Source: Rubripirellula sp. | GTDB lineage: Bacteria > Planctomycetota > Planctomycetia > Pirellulales > Pirellulaceae | Length of the DNA: 64,000 nt | NCBI GenBank assembly: GCA_028823035.1 | Contig: JAPKCI010000005.1 | Coordinates: 1 to 64,000, forward strand | Reading direction: 5' to 3' | Part shown: piece by piece, positions 37,678 through 46,712 of the stretch | Numbering within the stretch: position 1 is the first letter of the stretch | Layout of the letters: each line of letters begins with the position of its first letter | Program-made: the position numbers and the translations under genes | Notes under the pieces: model-generated | Databases searched by the model: none | The model's input: only the letters and a program-made list of their open reading frames with translations | What the model was told of the DNA's origin: nothing

Positions 37678-38438
37678 GTTTAAAATCACTTGATCTGCCG
37701 ATCTTTCTCGGGTCTCCCGTGTGGGCATGTGGGCACTGGGGCGGACAGGTCTATCCTGCGGGAACACCCCGCAGTGGGTGGCTTTCTTGGTGCTCCGATA
37801 CCTTCAACACGGTTGAGGGCAATAGTACGTTTGATGCTTTACCAAAGCCCGCTGCCATTCAACGGTGGGCAGAGCAGACCGCAGAGGAATTCCGCTTTGC
37901 ACTCAAGTTTTTCCGAACCATTTCGCACGATCTGCAGTTGGGAAGTTTGCAGGCTGCGACCCGGAATTTTCTAAGCCACATCGAACGCCTATGGGCAGCC
38001 GGACGTTTGGGCCCTGCGTTTCTGCAATTCGGGCCATGGTTCGGCCCAAACCGTTTTTATGTCCTTGCTCATTTTCTCATGCGGCTGCCTCGGGATTTTT
38101 CCTGGGCTGTTGAATTGAGGCATGTCGACTGGTTTGACTCTGGCGATCATGAAAAACGGGTTAATGCGATTTTTCAGCAGCTCGAAATCGACAAGGTGTT
38201 GTTCGATAGTCGACCTCTTTTTCAATCGCCTCCAGATGATCTCATTGAAAAAGTTTTGCAAGAGCGCAAGCCCCGAACTCCAGTCCGGAAAACGGTAACT
38301 GGCAAGCATGCCATACTCCGACTCGTAGGCAGGAACCGTGTTGAGTTGACTGACCGTTTTATGGATCAGTGGGCGGCGATCATTGCGGGCTTGGTTCAGC
38401 GGGCAGCGCAGCTATTTTTTTGGCCATGCACCCGATGA
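37674..38438 (+). CDS. DUF72 family protein
   Basis: This 254-aa DUF72 (YecE-type) protein has a TIM-barrel-like fold. Family motifs are visible: GSPVWACGHWGGQVYP at the N-terminus, FNTVEGNSTFDALP, FALKFFRTISHDLQL, LGPAFLQFGPWFGPN and FSWAVELRHVDWF. The biochemical role of DUF72 is unknown. It overlaps the Ppx/GppA gene by ATGA, suggesting co-translation. The C-terminus (AQLFFWPCTR) is a little short but intact. Confidence 0.9.
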   Translation: MSLKSLDLPIFLGSPVWACGHWGGQVYPAGTPRSGWLSWCSDTFNTVEGNSTFDALPKPAAIQRWAEQTAEEFRFALKFFRTISHDLQLGSLQAATRNFLSHIERLWAAGRLGPAFLQFGPWFGPNRFYVLAHFLMRLPRDFSWAVELRHVDWFDSGDHEKRVNAIFQQLEIDKVLFDSRPLFQSPPDDLIEKVLQERKPRTPVRKTVTGKHAILRLVGRNRVELTDRFMDQWAAIIAGLVQRAAQLFFWPCTR

Positions 38439-38596
38439 TCAGTTCACGCCGACGTTGGCGGCACGCATACAATCCAAGATGCCCCAGAGTAATTTGACCA
38501 TTCCACTGCCACCGACTGCGGCACGACAGTTTTCCCTACTGAATGAAACTGCTGAATGAAAATGATCGATCGTGAAGGTTGCGATTCTTCGCTGTC

Positions 38597-39841
38597 ATGC
38601 TTGGACAGCGCATCAGGCAAAATTGCAGGGGCCTCAAGTTGTCCTTGTTGATTCTTTCTGATGGCTCTGACTCTGCCGATCCATACCGGGAGGCCCGTCA
38701 TCAATTGGTGGTAGAACAAATTGCTACAGCAGGTGTGACCGACACGCGTGTTCTGCATGCCATTCTTAATACACCGCGTCATGAGTTTGTTCCCAACGAA
38801 CAGAGAGAGCGGGCGTACCTTGACATGGCGTTGCCCATTGGTGAAGCGCAAACCATCAGCAGTCCCTTCACGGTTGCTCTGATGACAGAGACGATCGATC
38901 CTCGCGAAAGTGATCGGGTCTTGGAAATCGGCACAGGAAGCGGTTACCAAGCGGCAGTACTCAGCCCGTTGGTCACGCACGTCTACTCAATCGAAATTGT
39001 CCCGGAATTAAGTCACCGAGCCTCGTCTATCCTGTCACGATTGAAATACGAGAATATTTCGACGCGAGTCGGGGATGGCTGTTCAGGCTGGAAAGAGGCT
39101 GCGCCTTTTGACAAGATCATTGTCACCTGTAGTCCTGAAGCTGTTCCCGAGGCATTGGTCGAACAGCTTCGTGAAGGCGGCACCTTGATCATTCCGGTAG
39201 GCGAGCGTTATCAGCAGACTCTGTTTCGGATGACCAAGCAGAATGGTCGGTTGGTGCGTGAAGCTCTGAGGCCAACGCTTTTTGTCCCCATGACGGGCGA
39301 GGCCGAAGAGGATCGGCAATTGCTGCCCGACGCAGGGAATCCGCAAGTCGTTAATGGCGATTTTGAGACCAGACTTAAGGTGGAACCTGAGTTCCATCGC
39401 AACCAAGTACCCGGTTGGTACTACGGCCGTCAGGTCAGTCTGGTCCTCGGCAATCCCCAGCAGCCGGCCGCCACGGGAACGTCATTTGTCCAATTTTCCA
39501 ATCAGGTACCGGGGCTCAGTTCACATCTGCTTCAGGGGATTCCAATGGATGGCAGGCAGGTACGTCGTATCCGCTTGAGTGGTCTGGCGAGAACTCGGGA
39601 TGTGTGTCCTGGCCCTGCGACCGACGCCGTTCCCATGATTTCGATCAGTCTCTATGACGCATCACGATCCGAGCTGGGGGTGTTTTGGCTCGGTCCGTTT
39701 GGGCAGCAGCAGGGCTGGCAAGCCGAACTGCGGGTGATTGACGTTCCAGAGCCAAGCCGCGAGGCAATCCTTCGGGTGGGGTTATTTGGAGCAACCGGGA
39801 CCGCGGATTTCGACGACATCCGGCTCGAGAGAGTTGTATAG
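38597..39841 (+). CDS. Protein-L-isoaspartate O-methyltransferase with C-terminal beta-sandwich domain
   Basis: PIMT methylates isoaspartyl residues for repair of aged proteins. The first 240 residues carry the family motifs: RHEFVPNEQRERAYLDMALP, GEAQTISSPFTVALM, VLEIGTGSGYQAAVLSPLV (near 109) and LREGGTLIIPVGE. Residues about 248-414 form an extra domain resembling carbohydrate-binding jelly rolls (VVNGDFETRL, QVPGWYYG, GTSFVQFSNQ, TADFDDIRLERV). Ordinary PIMT is about 210 aa. ATG 38597 is used; TTG 38579 is an alternative. The segment after the start (RIRQNCRGLKLSLLIL) is faintly signal-like, so an exported form is possible but unproven. Confidence 0.88.
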   Translation: MLGQRIRQNCRGLKLSLLILSDGSDSADPYREARHQLVVEQIATAGVTDTRVLHAILNTPRHEFVPNEQRERAYLDMALPIGEAQTISSPFTVALMTETIDPRESDRVLEIGTGSGYQAAVLSPLVTHVYSIEIVPELSHRASSILSRLKYENISTRVGDGCSGWKEAAPFDKIIVTCSPEAVPEALVEQLREGGTLIIPVGERYQQTLFRMTKQNGRLVREALRPTLFVPMTGEAEEDRQLLPDAGNPQVVNGDFETRLKVEPEFHRNQVPGWYYGRQVSLVLGNPQQPAATGTSFVQFSNQVPGLSSHLLQGIPMDGRQVRRIRLSGLARTRDVCPGPATDAVPMISISLYDASRSELGVFWLGPFGQQQGWQAELRVIDVPEPSREAILRVGLFGATGTADFDDIRLERVV

Positions 39842-40023
39842 GCGACAAACGTTGATTTGTGAACCAATTCGTCGGTATATCCGCACCTTCCGAGTCTTCC
39901 TGATCGGTAAAAGTTCACCAGGGATGCTTGCTTGCCTAGATTGCTTCGTTATCCTAGTCGTTAAGCCGCAACCATACAGATGTGGCGTCACTTACTGCTG
40001 GTCGAACTTGGAGATTTGAAATC

Positions 40024-41247
40024 ATGAGGTGTTTAAAGTTCTTGGCCTTCGCCGGCGCGATTGCCGTATTTGCTGGGACGGCGGAAGCAGGTGGTTCTTG
40101 GGGAGGCTCCTCGGGCGGAAATGCTTCCTCAGGCGGCTATGCCTCTTCCGGCGGCTATGCGTCTTCTGGCGGCGGCAGTGGTGGTCTGGTAGCCCACTGG
40201 CGGGCTAAACATGCAAACGGCTCCTCGGGTGGATCGACTGGTGGTTACGCTGCTTATTCGTCCTATGGTTCTTCAGGCGGTAGCAGTGGAGGTTCATCAG
40301 GCGGAAGCACTGGGCATGTCGGCCCATTGAGGCGGCTGTTTGCCAACATTCACGCTGCCAAAGCAGCGTTCCACAATCGCGGTAGCAGTGGTGGTTCTTC
40401 GGGCGGTTACACGGTGCGAGCGTACGGTTCTTCAGGTGGATCTTCCGGAGGCAGTAGCGGTGGGTATTCGGCCAATCGTTATTCTTCTCCCCGCGTCATG
40501 CCTTCAGCCGGATTGGGGTCAGCCACTTATGAGTCAGCCACGGTAGAACCCGCTCAGGTGGAAGAGATTGTCATTGAAGAGGCTGCTCCTGCGGCCCAGC
40601 CCCCAGCCGCTGATGCTCCTGCGGCCCAGCCCCCTGCCGCTGCTGCTCCTGCGGCCCAGCCCCCTGCCGCTGATCCGCCTGCGAAGCCAGCAGATGCTGA
40701 TTCTACGGCAGTTGAGTCAGATGCAGCATTGCTGACGGTCTCAGTGCCTCTTGACGCTTCTGTCGTTGTGAACGGTTATATGACACAGGCTGTAGGTTTG
40801 GTTCGTCAATTCAAGTCGCGTGGATTGAAGCCTGGATTCGTTTACACCTATGTAGTCGACGTAACTTACACCGTCGACGGTTCCGAGCTAACGGAGAGCA
40901 AGTCTGTCAAGTTGCGCCCTGGTACCAGTGAGCTCATCGAATTCGCTGCCAGCACCACGGTTGCAGTAGAAACAGAAAATCAGGATCTGACAACAGTTGT
41001 ACAGCTTCACGTTCCTGCGGATGCCAAGATTACCTTGGCTGGCAATGTTACTGATGGCGATGGCGAACTGAGAACGTATCGGACGCATCAGCTGACAGCA
41101 GGCGAAGTTTGGTCCGGTTACACCGTCCGGGTGACCACCGAGATCAACGGCAAGGCAGTAAGCAAAGAGCGAACGCTTGACTTGGTTGCAGGTAGCACCA
41201 ACGATTTGACATTTGAGTTCGGTGTCAATGAGCTTGCGAGCCGATAG
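40024..41247 (+). CDS. Secreted Ser/Gly-repeat protein with two TIGR03000-type domains
   Basis: The 407-aa product starts with a signal peptide (FLAFAGAIAVFAGTAEA). Residues about 22-160 are dominated by SSGG and GGYASSGG repeats broken by basic islands (HWRAKHANG, RRLFANIHAAKAAFHNRG). A Pro/Ala segment of three 10-residue repeats follows (PAAQPPAADA type, 40585-40674). Two similar domains at about 237-310 and 322-400 match the planctomycete TIGR03000 pattern (LTVSVPLDASVVVNGYMTQA ... GLKPGFVYTYVVDVTY; VQLHVPADAKITLAGNVTDG). GGAGA lies upstream of ATG 40024. The gene ends at a strong terminator. Probably a cell-surface or matrix protein. Confidence 0.87.
   Translation: MRCLKFLAFAGAIAVFAGTAEAGGSWGGSSGGNASSGGYASSGGYASSGGGSGGLVAHWRAKHANGSSGGSTGGYAAYSSYGSSGGSSGGSSGGSTGHVGPLRRLFANIHAAKAAFHNRGSSGGSSGGYTVRAYGSSGGSSGGSSGGYSANRYSSPRVMPSAGLGSATYESATVEPAQVEEIVIEEAAPAAQPPAADAPAAQPPAAAAPAAQPPAADPPAKPADADSTAVESDAALLTVSVPLDASVVVNGYMTQAVGLVRQFKSRGLKPGFVYTYVVDVTYTVDGSELTESKSVKLRPGTSELIEFAASTTVAVETENQDLTTVVQLHVPADAKITLAGNVTDGDGELRTYRTHQLTAGEVWSGYTVRVTTEINGKAVSKERTLDLVAGSTNDLTFEFGVNELASR
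40585..40674 (+). repeat. 30-bp in-frame tandem repeat, three copies
   Basis: Units start at 40585, 40615 and 40645 (GCTCCTGCGGCCCAGCCCCC type) with a few substitutions. They encode PAAQPPAADA-like decapeptides between the Ser/Gly region and the first TIGR03000 domain. Confidence 0.93.
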
Positions 41248-41276
41248 GCCGCAGTAAAAAAACTCGTCGATTCAAG

Positions 41277-41312
41277 AGCCGCGTTTCAGGCAATCGGAAA
41301 CGCGGCTTTTTT
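41277..41312 (+). terminator. Rho-independent terminator after the TIGR03000 protein gene
   Basis: GCCGCGTTTC (41278-41287) pairs perfectly with GAAACGCGGC (41297-41306) around a 9-base loop. Six Ts follow (41307-41312) and As precede the stem. It lies 30 bases after the stop at 41247. Confidence 0.9.
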
Positions 41313-41457
41313 CGTGCGATTGCTTGCCCAGTACTCCATCAATCGTCCCAAGAGAGGGTGCAACACGACTTGCTGCACCAAGCTCCGCTGTACATGATTG
41401 GGCCATGGACTACGGTAATAGGTAACCGAGTCGACCATCTACCCTTTTGATGTGCCC

Positions 41458-42090
41458 ATGGCTTCCGATCCAAATGTTCTGACCAAACAAGGGCGTCTGC
41501 TGATTAGCATTCTGATCATTGGGCATCTGCTGGCCGTTGTTCTGCCGCCCTTGTCGGTGCAAACCCGCGGACCCATCGGTCAGTCGCCTTCGATCGTGAC
41601 AGCTTTAGGGCTGATTGAGCGTTACAGCCAAATGCTCTACATCGATCGTGGTTACGCGTTTTTTGCTCCGGATCCGGGGCCCAGTCACCTGATCCAGGCG
41701 GCGGTCACTGATCAGAATGGGAAGCGTGTCGAGTGGATGTATCCAGATCGTGAGCAGCATTGGCCTCGCCTGCTGTATCACCGGCACTTCATGCTGAGTG
41801 AGTTCATGGAAGAGATTTATCAACCGCCCGGACCCCCGCCTGAGCTTCGGGCTCTGAATCGTGACGAAGCGATATACTGGGGTGAGGCGAGGAAGCGATA
41901 CGAGCATGTTCGAAGATCTGTCGTCGATCATTTGAAGTACGAAAACCCCGATAAGGAGGTGGCCATCCGGCGTGTTGAGCATCTGTTGCCTGACCTGATC
42001 GAATACCAAATTGCGCCCATTGAACTCACCGATGAGCGGCTCTACCGGGTTCTACTTGACCAGAATGTTCAGGAGGCAACCTCCGAATGA
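41458..42090 (+). CDS. Membrane-anchored protein of unknown function, partner of HTTM protein
   Basis: The 210-aa product has one N-terminal membrane helix (LLISILIIGHLLAVVLPPLS). A soluble part of about 170 aa follows, rich in Arg, Glu and Tyr (FFAPDPGPSHLIQAAV, MYPDREQHWPRLLYHRHFML). I do not recognise a named domain. It overlaps the downstream HTTM gene by ATGA, so the two are almost certainly co-translated and probably act together at the membrane. ATG 41458 is chosen over GTG 41452. No enzyme motif is visible; it may present the substrate of the HTTM protein or stabilise it. Confidence 0.8.
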   Translation: MASDPNVLTKQGRLLISILIIGHLLAVVLPPLSVQTRGPIGQSPSIVTALGLIERYSQMLYIDRGYAFFAPDPGPSHLIQAAVTDQNGKRVEWMYPDREQHWPRLLYHRHFMLSEFMEEIYQPPGPPPELRALNRDEAIYWGEARKRYEHVRRSVVDHLKYENPDKEVAIRRVEHLLPDLIEYQIAPIELTDERLYRVLLDQNVQEATSE

Positions 42091-43085
42091 GAACCTTGGG
42101 TTCTGACGTGAAAAACTGGTGCACCGGTTATGTCGAAGCGTGGGATCGTTTTTGGTTCACACCCCGACTACCCCATACACTGTCGGTCCTGCGCATCATT
42201 ACGGGAGTGATGTTGCTGTACTCACACGTTGTGTTGGCAACCGACCTGACTTCGTTTTTGGGCGAGACAGCCTGGGTCAACAACGAAACGTCCCGGCAAC
42301 TTCACGACGGCGCTTTTGGTTTTTCTGATTTTGGCAGAACGTACCTTTGGTACATCAGCAGTCCTACGTTGATTTGGGTGCACCACATTTTTACCATTGG
42401 TGTGACCGCATGTTTTGCGATGGGGTTTCTGACCAGAATTACCTCACCGCTCGCGTGGTTCTTGCAGTTGATGTACCTGCATCGACTGACGGGTGTACTT
42501 TTTGGTTTTGATCAGATTGTTACCTACATGACGATGTATTTGATGCTGGCTCCCTCGGGCAGCTGCTATAGCGTGGATTCGTTGATACGTGACCGATTTG
42601 GATCGCCGAGCCGGGGGCGATTTTGGAAGTGGTTGTGGCCTGAATCCACACCAACCATTTCGTCGAACATCGCGACGCGACTGCTGCAGCTGCATTTATG
42701 CGTGATTTACCTGTTTGGAGGTATTAGCAAAGCGCGGGGGCAGACCTGGTGGGATGGAACTGCGGTTTGGTACTCGGTGAGCAACTATGAGTACCAGTCG
42801 ATGAACATGACATGGTTGTATCGCTATCCGCGTTTTTTCAGTGCAATGACTCATGCCACGCTGTTTTGGGAAGTTTTTTACTGCGCCCTCGTATGGCCTC
42901 GTCTGACACGGCCCTTTGTCCTGGTGTTCGCAGTTATGGTGCACGCCGGCATCGCTCTGTTTCTGGGGATGATTACTTTTGGCACGATGATGATCGCTGC
43001 CAATATGATCTTTATCAGCCCCGAATGGGTGCAAGGCAGCCTTGGGAAAATGAGGGCAGGCTCTCCTGAGTCCGGCAATTCCTGA
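42087..43085 (+). CDS. HTTM-domain (vitamin K-dependent gamma-carboxylase-like) membrane protein
   Basis: The 332-aa integral membrane protein belongs to the HTTM group, which resembles the membrane domain of vitamin K-dependent gamma-glutamyl carboxylase. Hydrophobic helices include LRIITGVMLLYSHVVLA, HHIFTIGVTACFAMGF and FVLVFAVMVHAGIALFLGMI. The stretch YLFGGISKARGQTWWDG (Lys at residue 215) lines up with the human carboxylase segment around the catalytic Lys218. The large C-terminal part of animal carboxylases is absent. It overlaps the upstream gene by four bases. The reaction is not known for bacterial members; a carboxylase or quinone-linked redox role is possible. Confidence 0.82.
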   Translation: MRTLGSDVKNWCTGYVEAWDRFWFTPRLPHTLSVLRIITGVMLLYSHVVLATDLTSFLGETAWVNNETSRQLHDGAFGFSDFGRTYLWYISSPTLIWVHHIFTIGVTACFAMGFLTRITSPLAWFLQLMYLHRLTGVLFGFDQIVTYMTMYLMLAPSGSCYSVDSLIRDRFGSPSRGRFWKWLWPESTPTISSNIATRLLQLHLCVIYLFGGISKARGQTWWDGTAVWYSVSNYEYQSMNMTWLYRYPRFFSAMTHATLFWEVFYCALVWPRLTRPFVLVFAVMVHAGIALFLGMITFGTMMIAANMIFISPEWVQGSLGKMRAGSPESGNS

Positions 43086-43437
43086 TCATGGTACGGGGAG
43101 GGATTGTTCCTCTAGCTGCTCAAGTTCATGCCCGATCAATTTTACCACTGCTGTGCATCGAAGCTGTGCGATCAAAGCGTTGCCAATGTTTGACCGTGTT
43201 CCACCTCGACGTTGACAAATGCACGCTCGACGTTGACAAATGCACGCTCGACATTGACAAATGCACGACGCGTTCGCTCTTTACATTTGCTCTCGCATTT
43301 GATGACGGTCCGTGTGCGTCGCATAGCCGACCAGCATCCTGATTGGGATGGCTTTCCCAGCAATCAATGGGAAAGGCATCTTAGAAAAAGGAATCACCTG
43401 GACCCAGAAGATGTCTCTTGAAGCCAGACGCTTTCTC
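43086..43437. other. Intergenic region between the HTTM gene and gpmI
   Basis: About 350 bases with no supported gene. It holds a 21-bp tandem array (separate entry). The 84-codon plus-strand ORF and the 63-codon minus-strand ORF through the array owe their openness to the repeat. Confidence 0.55.
43205..43267. repeat. 21-bp tandem array, three copies
   Basis: Three successive 21-bp units at 43205, 43226 and 43247, each containing GACGTTGACAAATGCACG (third copy GACATTGACAAATGCACG). The third differs by one G-to-A change. Confidence 0.94.
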
Positions 43438-45042
43438 TTAAGGACTGAGTAATGGTTTTCCCGTCATCTGTTCAGGAACAGGTAGGCCCATGAGTTCCAG
43501 CACTGTTGGTGCAATATCGGCTAACCGCCCACCGCTCCGTAATGCATGTCCTTCCAGACCGGGTTCCACGACGATTAATGGGACATCAAACGTTGTGTGG
43601 GCCGTGTGAGGGCCCCCACTTTTCGGATCGATCATTTGTTCACAGTTGCCATGATCGGCAGTCACTACCAGCGAACCACCTTTGGCGAGCGTTGCTTCGA
43701 CAATCCGCCCCACGCAGGCGTCAACCTTTTCGACTGCCTTGACAGCGGCCGCGATGACCCCGGTGTGACCAACCATGTCCCCATTGGCAAAGTTGACTAT
43801 GATCAACGCCGCTTCTTCGGACTCAATTTCGGCGAGAACTTTTTCTGTGACTTTTTCCGCTGACATTTCAGGTTTTTGATCGTAGGTCGAAACGTCCCGA
43901 GGTGATGCAGCCATGCCCCGATCCTCATCAGAGAAAGGGTCATCCCGGTAGTCATTGAAGAAGAAAGTGACGTGGGGATACTTTTCGGTTTCAGCACACC
44001 GGAACTGATGCAAGTGCAGAGCACTGACGTATTCACCGAGGATGTTGGGCATCTTGGCAGGTTTCTCGAAGATGACGTGAACTGGCAAACCGGTTTCGTA
44101 GCCTGTCATGGTGGCAAAATAGAGGTTCCGGATTTGCTCGCCGCGATCGAAGCCTCCGCCATCGATGTTCTTCCATTGATCATCAGGCAGAACAAATGCT
44201 TTCGTAATTTCGCGAGTCCTGTCGCCGCGGTAGTTCAGGAAGATGATGGCATCGCCATCTTTGACCACCGTCGGGCCATTTGGTCCCGGGATGGTGGTTG
44301 CAGTGATGAACTCGTCACCTTTTCGGTTCGAATCAGTTGGCTCGTCGTAATACGACTGGATCGCTTCCAGAGCCGTGCTGGCAGTACTGGCTGCGCCTTC
44401 GGTTAGCATCTGATAAGCCGTGTGCACTCTTTCCCAGCGAAGATCGCGATCCATGGCGTAGAAACGCCCCACCACGCTGGCGACACGACCAACTCCAACA
44501 TTCTTCATTTTTTCTTCCAGCCGATTCACAAAATCTTTTCCGCCCGTCGGTGACGTGTCACGCCCGTCGGTGATCGCATGGACTGCAAACTTGTCGCTAT
44601 CGAGGCCTGCCTGCTTTACCAAATCGACGACGGCAAAGGCATGCTCCAGATCGCTATGAACGCGTCCATCAGACATCAATCCCAATAGATGCAGCGTGCC
44701 CCCACTGGCCTTTACATGGGCGATTGATTCTTGGAGTACCGAGTTGCTGAAGAACGACTCGTCGCGGATGGCTCGCGTGATTCGCATGATCTCTTGGTCA
44801 ACGATCCTGCCCGCCCCGATGTTCTGATGACCCACTTCACTGTTTCCCATTACCCCGGCGGGCAACCCGACGTCTTCACCCGATGTGTGGATCAGGACAT
44901 TCGGGTAATCACGCATCAATGCGTCGGCGACTGGTGTATCCGCCAAATGGACGGCATTGGCGTGATTCCATTCGGGGTTCGGGTTTTCACCCCAACCATC
45001 GCGTACGATCAGGACAACTGGCTTTCGGCGGACTTGAGGCAA
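43438..45042 (-). CDS. gpmI: 2,3-bisphosphoglycerate-independent phosphoglycerate mutase
   Basis: GpmI interconverts 3- and 2-phosphoglycerate in glycolysis without a cofactor and uses two Mn ions. The metal and catalytic motifs are intact: DGWGENPNP, GVMGNSEVGHQNIGAGRIVD with the phospho-accepting Ser, ITDGRDTSP, FLNYRGDRTREITKA, NFANGDMVGHTG and VTADHGNCEQM. The C-terminal TVLELMGLPVPEQMTGKPLL is diagnostic. The ORF extends upstream with no good ATG; TTG 45042 (LPQVRRKPVVLIV) gives the expected length of 534 aa, but the exact start is uncertain. It is transcribed away from pgi, another glycolytic gene. Confidence 0.93.
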   Translation of the reverse strand: MPQVRRKPVVLIVRDGWGENPNPEWNHANAVHLADTPVADALMRDYPNVLIHTSGEDVGLPAGVMGNSEVGHQNIGAGRIVDQEIMRITRAIRDESFFSNSVLQESIAHVKASGGTLHLLGLMSDGRVHSDLEHAFAVVDLVKQAGLDSDKFAVHAITDGRDTSPTGGKDFVNRLEEKMKNVGVGRVASVVGRFYAMDRDLRWERVHTAYQMLTEGAASTASTALEAIQSYYDEPTDSNRKGDEFITATTIPGPNGPTVVKDGDAIIFLNYRGDRTREITKAFVLPDDQWKNIDGGGFDRGEQIRNLYFATMTGYETGLPVHVIFEKPAKMPNILGEYVSALHLHQFRCAETEKYPHVTFFFNDYRDDPFSDEDRGMAASPRDVSTYDQKPEMSAEKVTEKVLAEIESEEAALIIVNFANGDMVGHTGVIAAAVKAVEKVDACVGRIVEATLAKGGSLVVTADHGNCEQMIDPKSGGPHTAHTTFDVPLIVVEPGLEGHALRSGGRLADIAPTVLELMGLPVPEQMTGKPLLSP

Positions 45043-45293
45043 GGGACTGTACTCTCTTGAATGTTGCAAAAAATAGGCTTTGCACGCCGTTCGCATGATG
45101 GCGTGGCACCGCTGGTGCAGCGGGAGTTCAAATAACGTCGTCTCCCGCAGCCCAATCTAGCCGACAATGGTCCTCCTCGGAACGCCCAAAGGAATCCAGT
45201 CTGCCATTCCCCTTAGGCCGCTTCGAGACTCCCCGTCCATGCGTTAATCTAATCGGGACATGGCAAACAAAACTTCCTAGGAATTCTCTGATC

Positions 45294-46712
45294 ATGCCTC
45301 TTCTTCGTTTTGACCCATCCGGCAGTATTAATTCCGATTTTGGTATCACCGAAGATCAGATTGCGGGGCTATCTGATACCTTGGGCAATCTCCGCACCGA
45401 GATGGTTGAGACCGATCAGCAGCAGTATGAGTCGGGTCAGATCCCGGAGAATAAGCAACCGTTGGACGCCCGCTTCTTTTGGCTTCCGGAGGAGCAATTG
45501 GCAGCGTACCAATCAGACCGGGCCGAGTCAGAGTTGGGTCGTATTTTTCAAGTTGCCAACGGCATGCACAACGAGATCGACGCTGTTGTCGTGCTGGGGA
45601 TTGGTGGTTCTTACATGGGTGCGCGGGCGATGATGGAAGCCTGTTGTGATCCCTATCACAATGAATTGACTCGTGCGGCTCGCGGCAGTAAGCCGCGGAT
45701 GTATTTCGAGGGTAACAATGTTGACAACGATGCGAGTAGTGCCTTGTGGCATCGACTCAAGGCAGGTGGGTCTGGGCCTACTGAGGCTGAACAGCGTTTT
45801 GCGATTGTCGTGATCAGCAAGAGTGGTGGGACAATGGAAACAGCTGTTGCCTTTAGACAGTGTTTGGCGGCGTTGGAGGAGTCGCTTGGGGATCAGGCCG
45901 CAAGTCAGTTGGGTCGATTTGTGATTCCGGTGACTGGAGCACAGGGTAAGTTGCACGATTTGGCATCGGCAATTGGCTGCCAGCAGGTTTTCAGCGTTCC
46001 GGAAGGAGTGGGCGGACGCTTCAGCGTGCTTTCCTCGGTTGGCTTGATGCCAGCTGCGATGCTGGGACTGGACTGCATGAAGTTGTTGGAAGGAGCAGTC
46101 GCCATGAACGAACATTTTAGAACTGCGTCCTACGAAGACAATGTCGTTCTGCAATATGTGGCGGTCAATCACTTGCTGGCAAAATATCGTGACAAGTCGA
46201 TTCGTGTGATGAGCGTCTGGAGCAAGGCCCTTGAATCGGTTGGGCTTTGGTACGACCAGTTGCTTGCCGAGTCCAACGGTAAAGAGGGCTTGGGTGTGAC
46301 CCCCCTGACAACGGTAAATACCCGGGATCTCCACAGTCGGCATCAACAGCATCAGCAGGGACGGAATGACAAGGTATTCAATAATGTCATCGTTGAAAAT
46401 TATCGGACTGACCCATTGCCAGTCGGGCACAGCGAAAGAAATCAGGACGAATTGAATGATCTTTCGGATCGTACTCTTCCAGAGATCATGGCGGCTGCCA
46501 TCAAGGGAACTAACGATGCCTTGCACGAAGACGGACGCCCAACAACGGATATTTTGCTTCCTGGAATTGACACGCACGTGCTGGGGCAGTTGTTTCAAAT
46601 GCTGATGATTGCAACAGTGATTGAGGGACGACTGCTGGGCATCAATCCCTATGGACAACCCGGAGTTGAACAGTACAAACGCAACATGAACAAGAACCTC
46701 GGACGGACGTGA
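45294..46712 (+). CDS. pgi: Glucose-6-phosphate isomerase
   Basis: Pgi interconverts glucose-6-phosphate and fructose-6-phosphate. The 472-aa protein has the sugar-isomerase folds: VVVLGIGGSYMGARAM, IVVISKSGGTMETAVAFRQ with the phosphate-binding Ser/Thr, and GVGGRFSVLSSVGLMPAAML. ITGRE-type signatures give way here to SVWSKALESVGLWYDQLLAE, and the C-terminal QPGVEQYKRNM is family-typical. It is shorter than enteric Pgi (549 aa) but similar to Gram-positive forms. ATG 45294 is used. gpmI is divergent upstream and trpA follows 250 bases later. Confidence 0.95.
   Translation: MPLLRFDPSGSINSDFGITEDQIAGLSDTLGNLRTEMVETDQQQYESGQIPENKQPLDARFFWLPEEQLAAYQSDRAESELGRIFQVANGMHNEIDAVVVLGIGGSYMGARAMMEACCDPYHNELTRAARGSKPRMYFEGNNVDNDASSALWHRLKAGGSGPTEAEQRFAIVVISKSGGTMETAVAFRQCLAALEESLGDQAASQLGRFVIPVTGAQGKLHDLASAIGCQQVFSVPEGVGGRFSVLSSVGLMPAAMLGLDCMKLLEGAVAMNEHFRTASYEDNVVLQYVAVNHLLAKYRDKSIRVMSVWSKALESVGLWYDQLLAESNGKEGLGVTPLTTVNTRDLHSRHQQHQQGRNDKVFNNVIVENYRTDPLPVGHSERNQDELNDLSDRTLPEIMAAAIKGTNDALHEDGRPTTDILLPGIDTHVLGQLFQMLMIATVIEGRLLGINPYGQPGVEQYKRNMNKNLGRT

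Follow-up and report, generated by a model that had tools for sequence, protein, structure and literature searches.

Introduction

Most bacterial members of the large superfamily to which human gamma-glutamyl carboxylase (GGCX) belongs are uncharacterised, whereas GGCX itself is well studied. Like the bacterial VKGCs, it combines an HTTM part with a PF22777 domain. As described in the available text of PMC12589487, Lys218 of GGCX is the catalytic base, Asn159, His160 and Tyr395 hold the Glu, and the naphthoquinone site is lined by Phe286, Phe294, Phe299, His160, Val210, Met401 and Trp223. HTTM proteins have also been connected with secreted peptides and proteins. In Bacillus, SdpA and SdpB are needed for the processing of secreted SdpC (accessible sections of PMC6818787), and in linaridin clusters an HTTM protein (e.g. 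crdG) is assumed to help mature the peptide (accessible sections of PMC9927463). Leads on linaridin epimerases showed no tie to HTTM in the accessible portions of the literature searched.

Here we analyse a planctomycete gene pair, A-B, that can be compared with each of these systems. B shares with GGCX and the VKGCs the fold, the base Lys and the Trp223, His287 and Phe299 positions, but it lacks the Asn159-His160 Glu pocket, Asn290 and Phe286 and falls into a separate tree group. Neither A nor B contains PF22777, and the extracytoplasmic part is here a separate, non-matching protein. As in sdpABC (TIGR04034/TIGR04033), as far as the accessible text describes it, a partner gene, an HTTM gene and a gene for a secreted protein lie side by side, but the secreted neighbour of A-B is instead a Gly/Ser-rich TIGR03000 protein encoded upstream. 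The linaridin HTTM protein is likewise a membrane protein, encoded near a peptide substrate, yet with other partner genes; this comparison is drawn from the available text. In the literature searched, with most subscription papers outside its scope, we found no paper on the A-B gene pair and none that uses the word TIGR03000.

Results

The A-B locus

The window, a stretch of 64,000 nucleotides of Rubripirellula sp. DNA (contig JAPKCI010000005.1), holds the genes and elements compiled in Table 1.

Table 1. Positions of the features discussed, in window coordinates
Feature	Position	Strand	Remark
PCMT (isoaspartate methyltransferase family) gene	38579..39841	+	less constant neighbour
Gene for secreted-looking Gly/Ser-rich protein with two TIGR03000 domains	39982..41247	+	directly upstream of A; proposed substrate
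TIGR03000 domain copy 1	40723..40944	+	
TIGR03000 domain copy 2	40990..41214	+	
Intrinsic-terminator-like hairpin with T tail, between TIGR03000 gene and A	41274..41312	+	-20.7 kcal/mol, z -2.6
Gene A	41458..42090	+	210-aa partner protein, N-terminal membrane helix, without known domain
Gene B	42087..43085	+	332-aa HTTM membrane protein, GGCX fold
Lys215 codon of B	42729..42731	+	counterpart of GGCX Lys218, by alignment

A and B are real overlapping genes that share the bases ATGA, with the boundaries assigned to them in the first-pass annotation. A starts with ATG, with a GTG 6 bases upstream, and a Shine-Dalgarno-like AGGAGG precedes B. Neither an Rfam search of positions 38000-46000 nor a sigma-70 promoter scan of 39800-43400 returned a match. 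Directly downstream of B, three near-perfect 21-bp direct repeats (CTCGACGTTGACAAATGCACG) occupy positions 43205-43267.

The A protein has one hydrophobic segment (residues 10-36) and finds no match in Pfam or NCBIfam at E<=10, which agrees with its earlier description as a one-helix protein without a known domain. It carries the motifs GYxFFAPDPGPSHL and PRLxYHRxFML, and in the 42 rows of its alignment (A2, 42 of 43 A proteins) His23, Tyr56, Phe69, Pro73, Pro103, Arg104, Tyr107, His108, Arg109 and Met112 are invariant. B matches the Pfam HTTM model (PF05090) with E 2.3e-5 and 24.5 bits, under the cut-off of 27.7, whereas its orthologue L012 scores above it (40 bits).

Several B homologues are longer at the C terminus than B of this window (406-493 aa versus 332), owing to a tail that by eye looks acidic and coiled-coil-like; it was recognised by sequence in L011, L012, L014, L017 and L019, and by length in L013 and L018. 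At a further locus (L101, 4827-7796) an in-frame fusion joins B to a long TPR region, giving 989 aa, and an internal lipoprotein-like start suggests that two genes may run together there.

Conservation and distribution of the pair

Among 60 genomes, made up of the window's own and those of 59 relatives, 56 gave B-like genes and 51 gave A, and B lies directly downstream of A on the same strand at all of the 55 A matches. Conserved adjacency had been set beforehand as the check on A being a dedicated partner, and this part of the first-pass annotation is borne out. The named loci are the best 80 of 230 found through A; within these 80, B follows A in 79, and the exception, L114, breaks off at a contig edge. 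The 4-base overlap recurs in 63 of the 78 loci of this best-80 set in which it was measured, and at L165 the B reading frame extends 247 bases into that of A. The closest named relatives in the same best 80 include Rhodopirellula and Rubripirellula.

When 294 evenly sampled planctomycetes, among them the window's own genome, were searched and the 9 or 6 top candidates of each genome scored, A was found in at least 6 genomes and a B-like protein in at least 61. Four of the six A-bearing genomes belong to the same family (own included), a fifth belongs to the same class and the sixth is more distant, so that the strict A-B pair looks concentrated in this order.

Fold and active site of B

The searches gave 62 distinct B matches. 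By score thresholds of our own choice, 44 were classed as close homologues (P1, score >190) and 16 as a sister HTTM family (P2, 80-190; loci L083-L097 and L102), and two one-piece HTTM proteins of this genome (L098, L099) were set aside. The B alignment (A1) comprises 41 of the 44 P1 proteins. The predicted model of B (pLDDT 92.6, 41 sequences) matches residues 41-327 of human GGCX with VIA Z 22.2 over 278 aligned residues at 3.3 A rmsd (Foldseek E 4.6e-6), so that its first description as a carboxylase-like HTTM protein proved apt at the level of fold. In the fold search 15 GGCX chains scored Z 19.4-22.2 and one more 15.4, and the best non-GGCX row had 6.5. PDB sequence searches with the B profile, the A profile and the one-piece HTTM protein L098 remained without result.

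Residues of B and GGCX were paired via a planctomycete VKGC (L216), aligned to GGCX by phmmer (E 3e-49) and to B by MAFFT. By this route Lys215 of B, in the context 'GISKARGQTWWDG', corresponds to GGCX Lys218, as had been proposed at the outset. It is conserved more than chance would give, being kept in all 44 P1 proteins, and the Lys is present in all 78 B genes examined in the 80 named loci (74 by pattern, 4 by eye). For the comparison of sites we used 32 VKGC rows with scores >280 (31 distinct, one being a duplicate; L221-L223 scored lower and were excluded), 9 one-piece HTTM rows from 22 loci examined (L098, L099, L230-L249), 44 P1 and 16 P2 rows. Lys occupies the Lys218 position in 32/32 VKGCs, five seed rows of which were chosen by a motif that includes this Lys, in 9/9 one-piece and 44/44 P1 proteins, and in 8/16 of P2. 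The Trp223 position is Trp throughout all four groups. At the His287 position, His is found in 32/32 VKGC, 9/9 one-piece and 44/44 P1 rows, and Trp in 16/16 of P2; Phe at the Phe299 position is likewise complete in the first three groups (32/32, 9/9, 44/44) and present in 12/16 of P2.

The residues that hold the Glu in GGCX are not retained in the same way. The Asn159 position is Asn in 32/32 VKGCs and Gly in 44/44 P1 proteins, and the His160 position is His in 32/32 VKGCs but in none of the 44 P1 proteins (Leu 28, Phe 14, Val 1, Thr 1). The residue that follows is Asp in 44/44 P1 and 9/9 one-piece proteins; P2 has Glu in 14 and Asp in 2 rows. Asn290 is kept in 29/32 VKGCs, compared with Ile in 44/44 P1 proteins, and Phe286 in 32/32 VKGCs, compared with Val, Leu, Met or Ile in P1. 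In terms of B itself, Lys215, Trp221, His286, Phe298 and Asp142 are strictly invariant in P1. These counts indicate that B conserves the base and some of the quinone pocket, but not the Glu grip. Asp142 may take the place of His160 in three dimensions, and the conserved counterparts of Trp223, His287 and Phe299 make a quinone coupling of B possible, as judged from the alignment.

In a 90-row tree the VKGCs form one group (100/99), from which B is excluded, and P2 forms another (100/100). P1 together with one further planctomycete protein (L207) forms a third (98/83) that joins P2 at 99/90; the tree uses 20 of the 44 P1 rows, and its long branches make the deeper joins unsure. VKGC-type proteins with PF22777, the Asn-His pair and the Lys are spread in planctomycetes, occurring in 31 of 246 sampled genomes (loci L216-L220 and L250-L274), and at L217-L220 the gene adjoins a polysaccharide-export-like gene (by eye). 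The genome of the window has no match to PF22777 or VKOR, and MenB is not over its cut-off there (the search did not extend to the futalosine pathway).

A recognisable A-like partner accompanies 12 of the 16 P2 proteins, with none within 300 bases at L083, L084, L089 and L093. As the pair is retained in P2 although half of its members have lost the Lys, it can persist without the base, at least in this family.

Gene A and the wider set of HTTM partners

A and the P2 partner are related at hhalign 99.5% (E 2.8e-22). The profile comparison with distant partners, a set of seven chosen partly since two already matched A, is weaker (91.8%, E 7e-7). These distant partners in turn match the C-terminal domain of one-piece HTTM proteins at 93.7% (E 1.9e-7), or at 11.9% with just two one-piece proteins in the comparison, and A matches this domain directly at 3.1% (E 0.014). 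This chain of profile comparisons, to which the membrane helix contributes, makes it probable that A is an HTTM C-terminal subunit that has become detached. A belongs to a wider set of membrane-anchored HTTM partners that is profile-linked to the one-piece C-terminal domain. The one-piece proteins L098 and L099 of the same genome share the Lys, Asp, Trp, His and Phe with B, and their C-terminal domain, with an FQMF motif, is the one matched by the distant A-like partners. Unlike the split A-B they are fused, and they are not beside a TIGR03000 gene, as the only one found in this genome is that of the window.

We inspected 16 more distant HTTM loci by eye (L200-L215). In eight of them (L202, L203, L205, L206, L207, L212, L213, L214) a TM protein carrying a W/F-x-M/F-F-A-P-like motif is encoded upstream, whereas the motif is missing in the upstream protein of L209, L210 and L211, and L200 and L201 are without such a protein. 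At L204 the partner is masked, the tail of L215 looks fused, and at L208 an A-like gene lies two genes upstream, with a Gly-rich, secreted-looking protein encoded between A and B.

The predicted model of A (pLDDT 85.9, pTM 0.65) has no fold match in the PDB (best E 0.26, no chain at Z >=5); in this search a GGCX chain appeared at Z 3.1, over one 47-residue helical stretch. Two candidate identities were rejected. Despite a similar-looking order of strands and helices, the profile comparison with the VKGC lumenal (propeptide-binding) domain gave 0.5% with 5 sequences and 1.4% with 32, and PF22777 is absent among the families matched by 42 A proteins. SdpA gave no match to A at E<=10, and none of the 60 genomes had a protein over the SdpA cut-off.

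A TIGR03000 protein as neighbour

The TIGR03000 protein of the window has a signal-peptide-like start. TIGR03000 occurs in 57 of the 60 genomes, with exactly two domain matches in 48 of these 57, and in 7 of the 57 it is present without an A match. Its gene lies upstream of A (<=2.5 kb, same strand) at 48 of the 55 A matches; one of the other seven is in G043, where A begins 120 bases from the contig start and its upstream side cannot be judged. Within the named loci (best 80 of 230) it is upstream in 50 of 71 testable cases and missing in 21, with nine more at edges. The neighbour of the divergent second copy, L101, is TIGR03000-like and Gly/Ser-rich. This association of A-B with TIGR03000 is new in this analysis. 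The PCMT gene further upstream was found in 28 named loci (again of the best 80 of 230), with 37 lacking it and 15 at edges.

Of 21 P1 loci, 17 have a gene for a Gly-rich protein ahead of A, compared with 2 of 405 other genes there, and with the same threshold 2 of 12 P2 pairs do; six loci for which the simple gene caller gave no upstream gene (L067, L073, L076, L086, L088, L096) were counted as misses. In five of the 12 P2 pairs (L085, L087, L094, L095, L097) the upstream gene encodes a small Gly- and Cys-rich protein.

Of 17 loci, 12 have a terminator-like hairpin in the gap that separates A from the TIGR03000 gene, a count made without a shuffled control. The automated terminator scan did not list the one in the window, as its loop of 9 exceeds the limit of 8. 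In view of this hairpin, the TIGR03000 gene and A may not be co-transcribed.

Discussion

We tentatively favour a reading in which A-B, as a membrane enzyme of two subunits within the HTTM/GGCX superfamily, modifies a secreted protein with Lys215 as base; the upstream TIGR03000 protein would be the most likely substrate. B would be the catalytic subunit, in which Lys215, at the end of the helix equivalent to TM5, would act like GGCX Lys218, probably on a quinol bound in a pocket with the conserved Trp, Phe and His. A would be a separate extracytoplasmic subunit; oriented outward on its one-helix anchor and in contact with B, it would hold the substrate or close the active site, which in one-piece HTTM proteins may be the task of the C-terminal domain. 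A Lys base would imply GGCX-like chemistry, and the missing Asn-His pair a different acceptor. Since Gly-(Leu/Phe), next to an invariant Asp, stands where GGCX has Asn-His, this acceptor is probably not Glu. By analogy with the SdpABC and linaridin HTTM precedents, A-B would act on the TIGR03000 protein. A more specific version, which we consider somewhat unlikely as a whole, is that a split GGCX-fold enzyme puts a non-Gla modification as its product on a TIGR03000 surface protein by Lys-based quinol or carbanion chemistry, with Asp142 next to the position that the Glu-gripping Asn-His pair occupies in GGCX.

Several findings count against the proposed enzyme, namely the loss of the Lys in half of P2 and of the His287 counterpart in all of it, the Gly-rich upstream gene at just 2 of 12 P2 pairs, the hairpin, the loci without TIGR03000 and the genomes with TIGR03000 but no A, as well as the missing PDB fold match of A, its low values against the one-piece and the VKGC lumenal domains, the lack of VKOR and of a MenB over its cut-off.

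On the unlikely side, although to be weighed foremost among the alternatives, A and B could be a processing or export factor like SdpAB that helps to mature or release the secreted protein, B having no enzyme activity of its own. The sdpABC-like layout suggests this, as does the pair being kept in P2 relatives half of which are without the Lys. B also matches the SdpB model weakly (36.3 bits, E 4.5e-9), but far under its cut-off of 178.4, and A matches no SdpA model; moreover, the strict invariance of the five B residues in P1 argues for chemistry.

It is unlikely that the TIGR03000 association is merely positional and that A-B acts on lipids or something else. The hairpin between the genes and the 21 testable named loci without TIGR03000 are in line with such a reading, but it has to contend with the upstream gene at 48 of 55 A matches, with the two-domain form that recurs in most TIGR03000-bearing genomes and with the TIGR03000-like Gly/Ser-rich neighbour of the divergent copy at L101.

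HTTM proteins with a C-terminal DCC1-like thiol-disulfide domain occur at L203 (PF04134, by Pfam) and, by eye, at L204, L205, L206, L213 and L215; at L203, L205, L206 and L213 the gene adjoins that of a TM protein with a QRWNMF motif. These distant relatives, together with weak DoxD and DoxX matches, would suit a redox enzyme in the membrane that shuttles electrons from quinone to thiols or back and leaves the TIGR03000 protein unmodified. This reading is distinctly improbable here, as a thiol-disulfide domain of this kind is absent from both A and B of the window. A two-piece menaquinol-dependent gamma-glutamyl carboxylase that makes Gla on a secreted protein, the strict form of the carboxylase idea of the first-pass annotation, is a very doubtful reading: in its favour are the GGCX fold, the counterparts of Lys218, Trp223, His287 and Phe299 and a short Glu-containing stretch before the TIGR03000 domains of the upstream protein (by eye), but against it stand the loss of Asn159, His160 and Asn290 in all P1 proteins, the place of B outside the VKGC group, the failure of A to match the VKGC lumenal domain, and a genome without PF22777 or VKOR and with MenB not over its cut-off. 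B thus shares the fold and the base of GGCX, yet two tested features of gamma-glutamyl carboxylases, Asn159-His160 and PF22777, are missing from it.

To return to the two-subunit enzyme that we favour, the first-pass annotation had regarded a dedicated partner as new biology. The partner is present and A-B is strongly conserved, but a partner of an HTTM protein is not new in itself, as SdpA/SdpB sets the precedent; the partner-plus-enzyme arrangement is already known and A-B is a new version of it. The comparison separates two parts of the GGCX site, one shared with these proteins (Lys218, Trp223, His287, Phe299) and one confined, among the proteins compared here, to VKGCs (Asn159, His160 and, for the most part, Asn290). 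It also connects TIGR03000, an orphan domain, with a likely enzyme. With a conserved partner and a candidate substrate in one small cluster, the role of HTTM proteins that are not carboxylases becomes testable. In this group of planctomycetes, A-B suggests an unstudied two-part enzyme that may modify the adjacent secreted protein.
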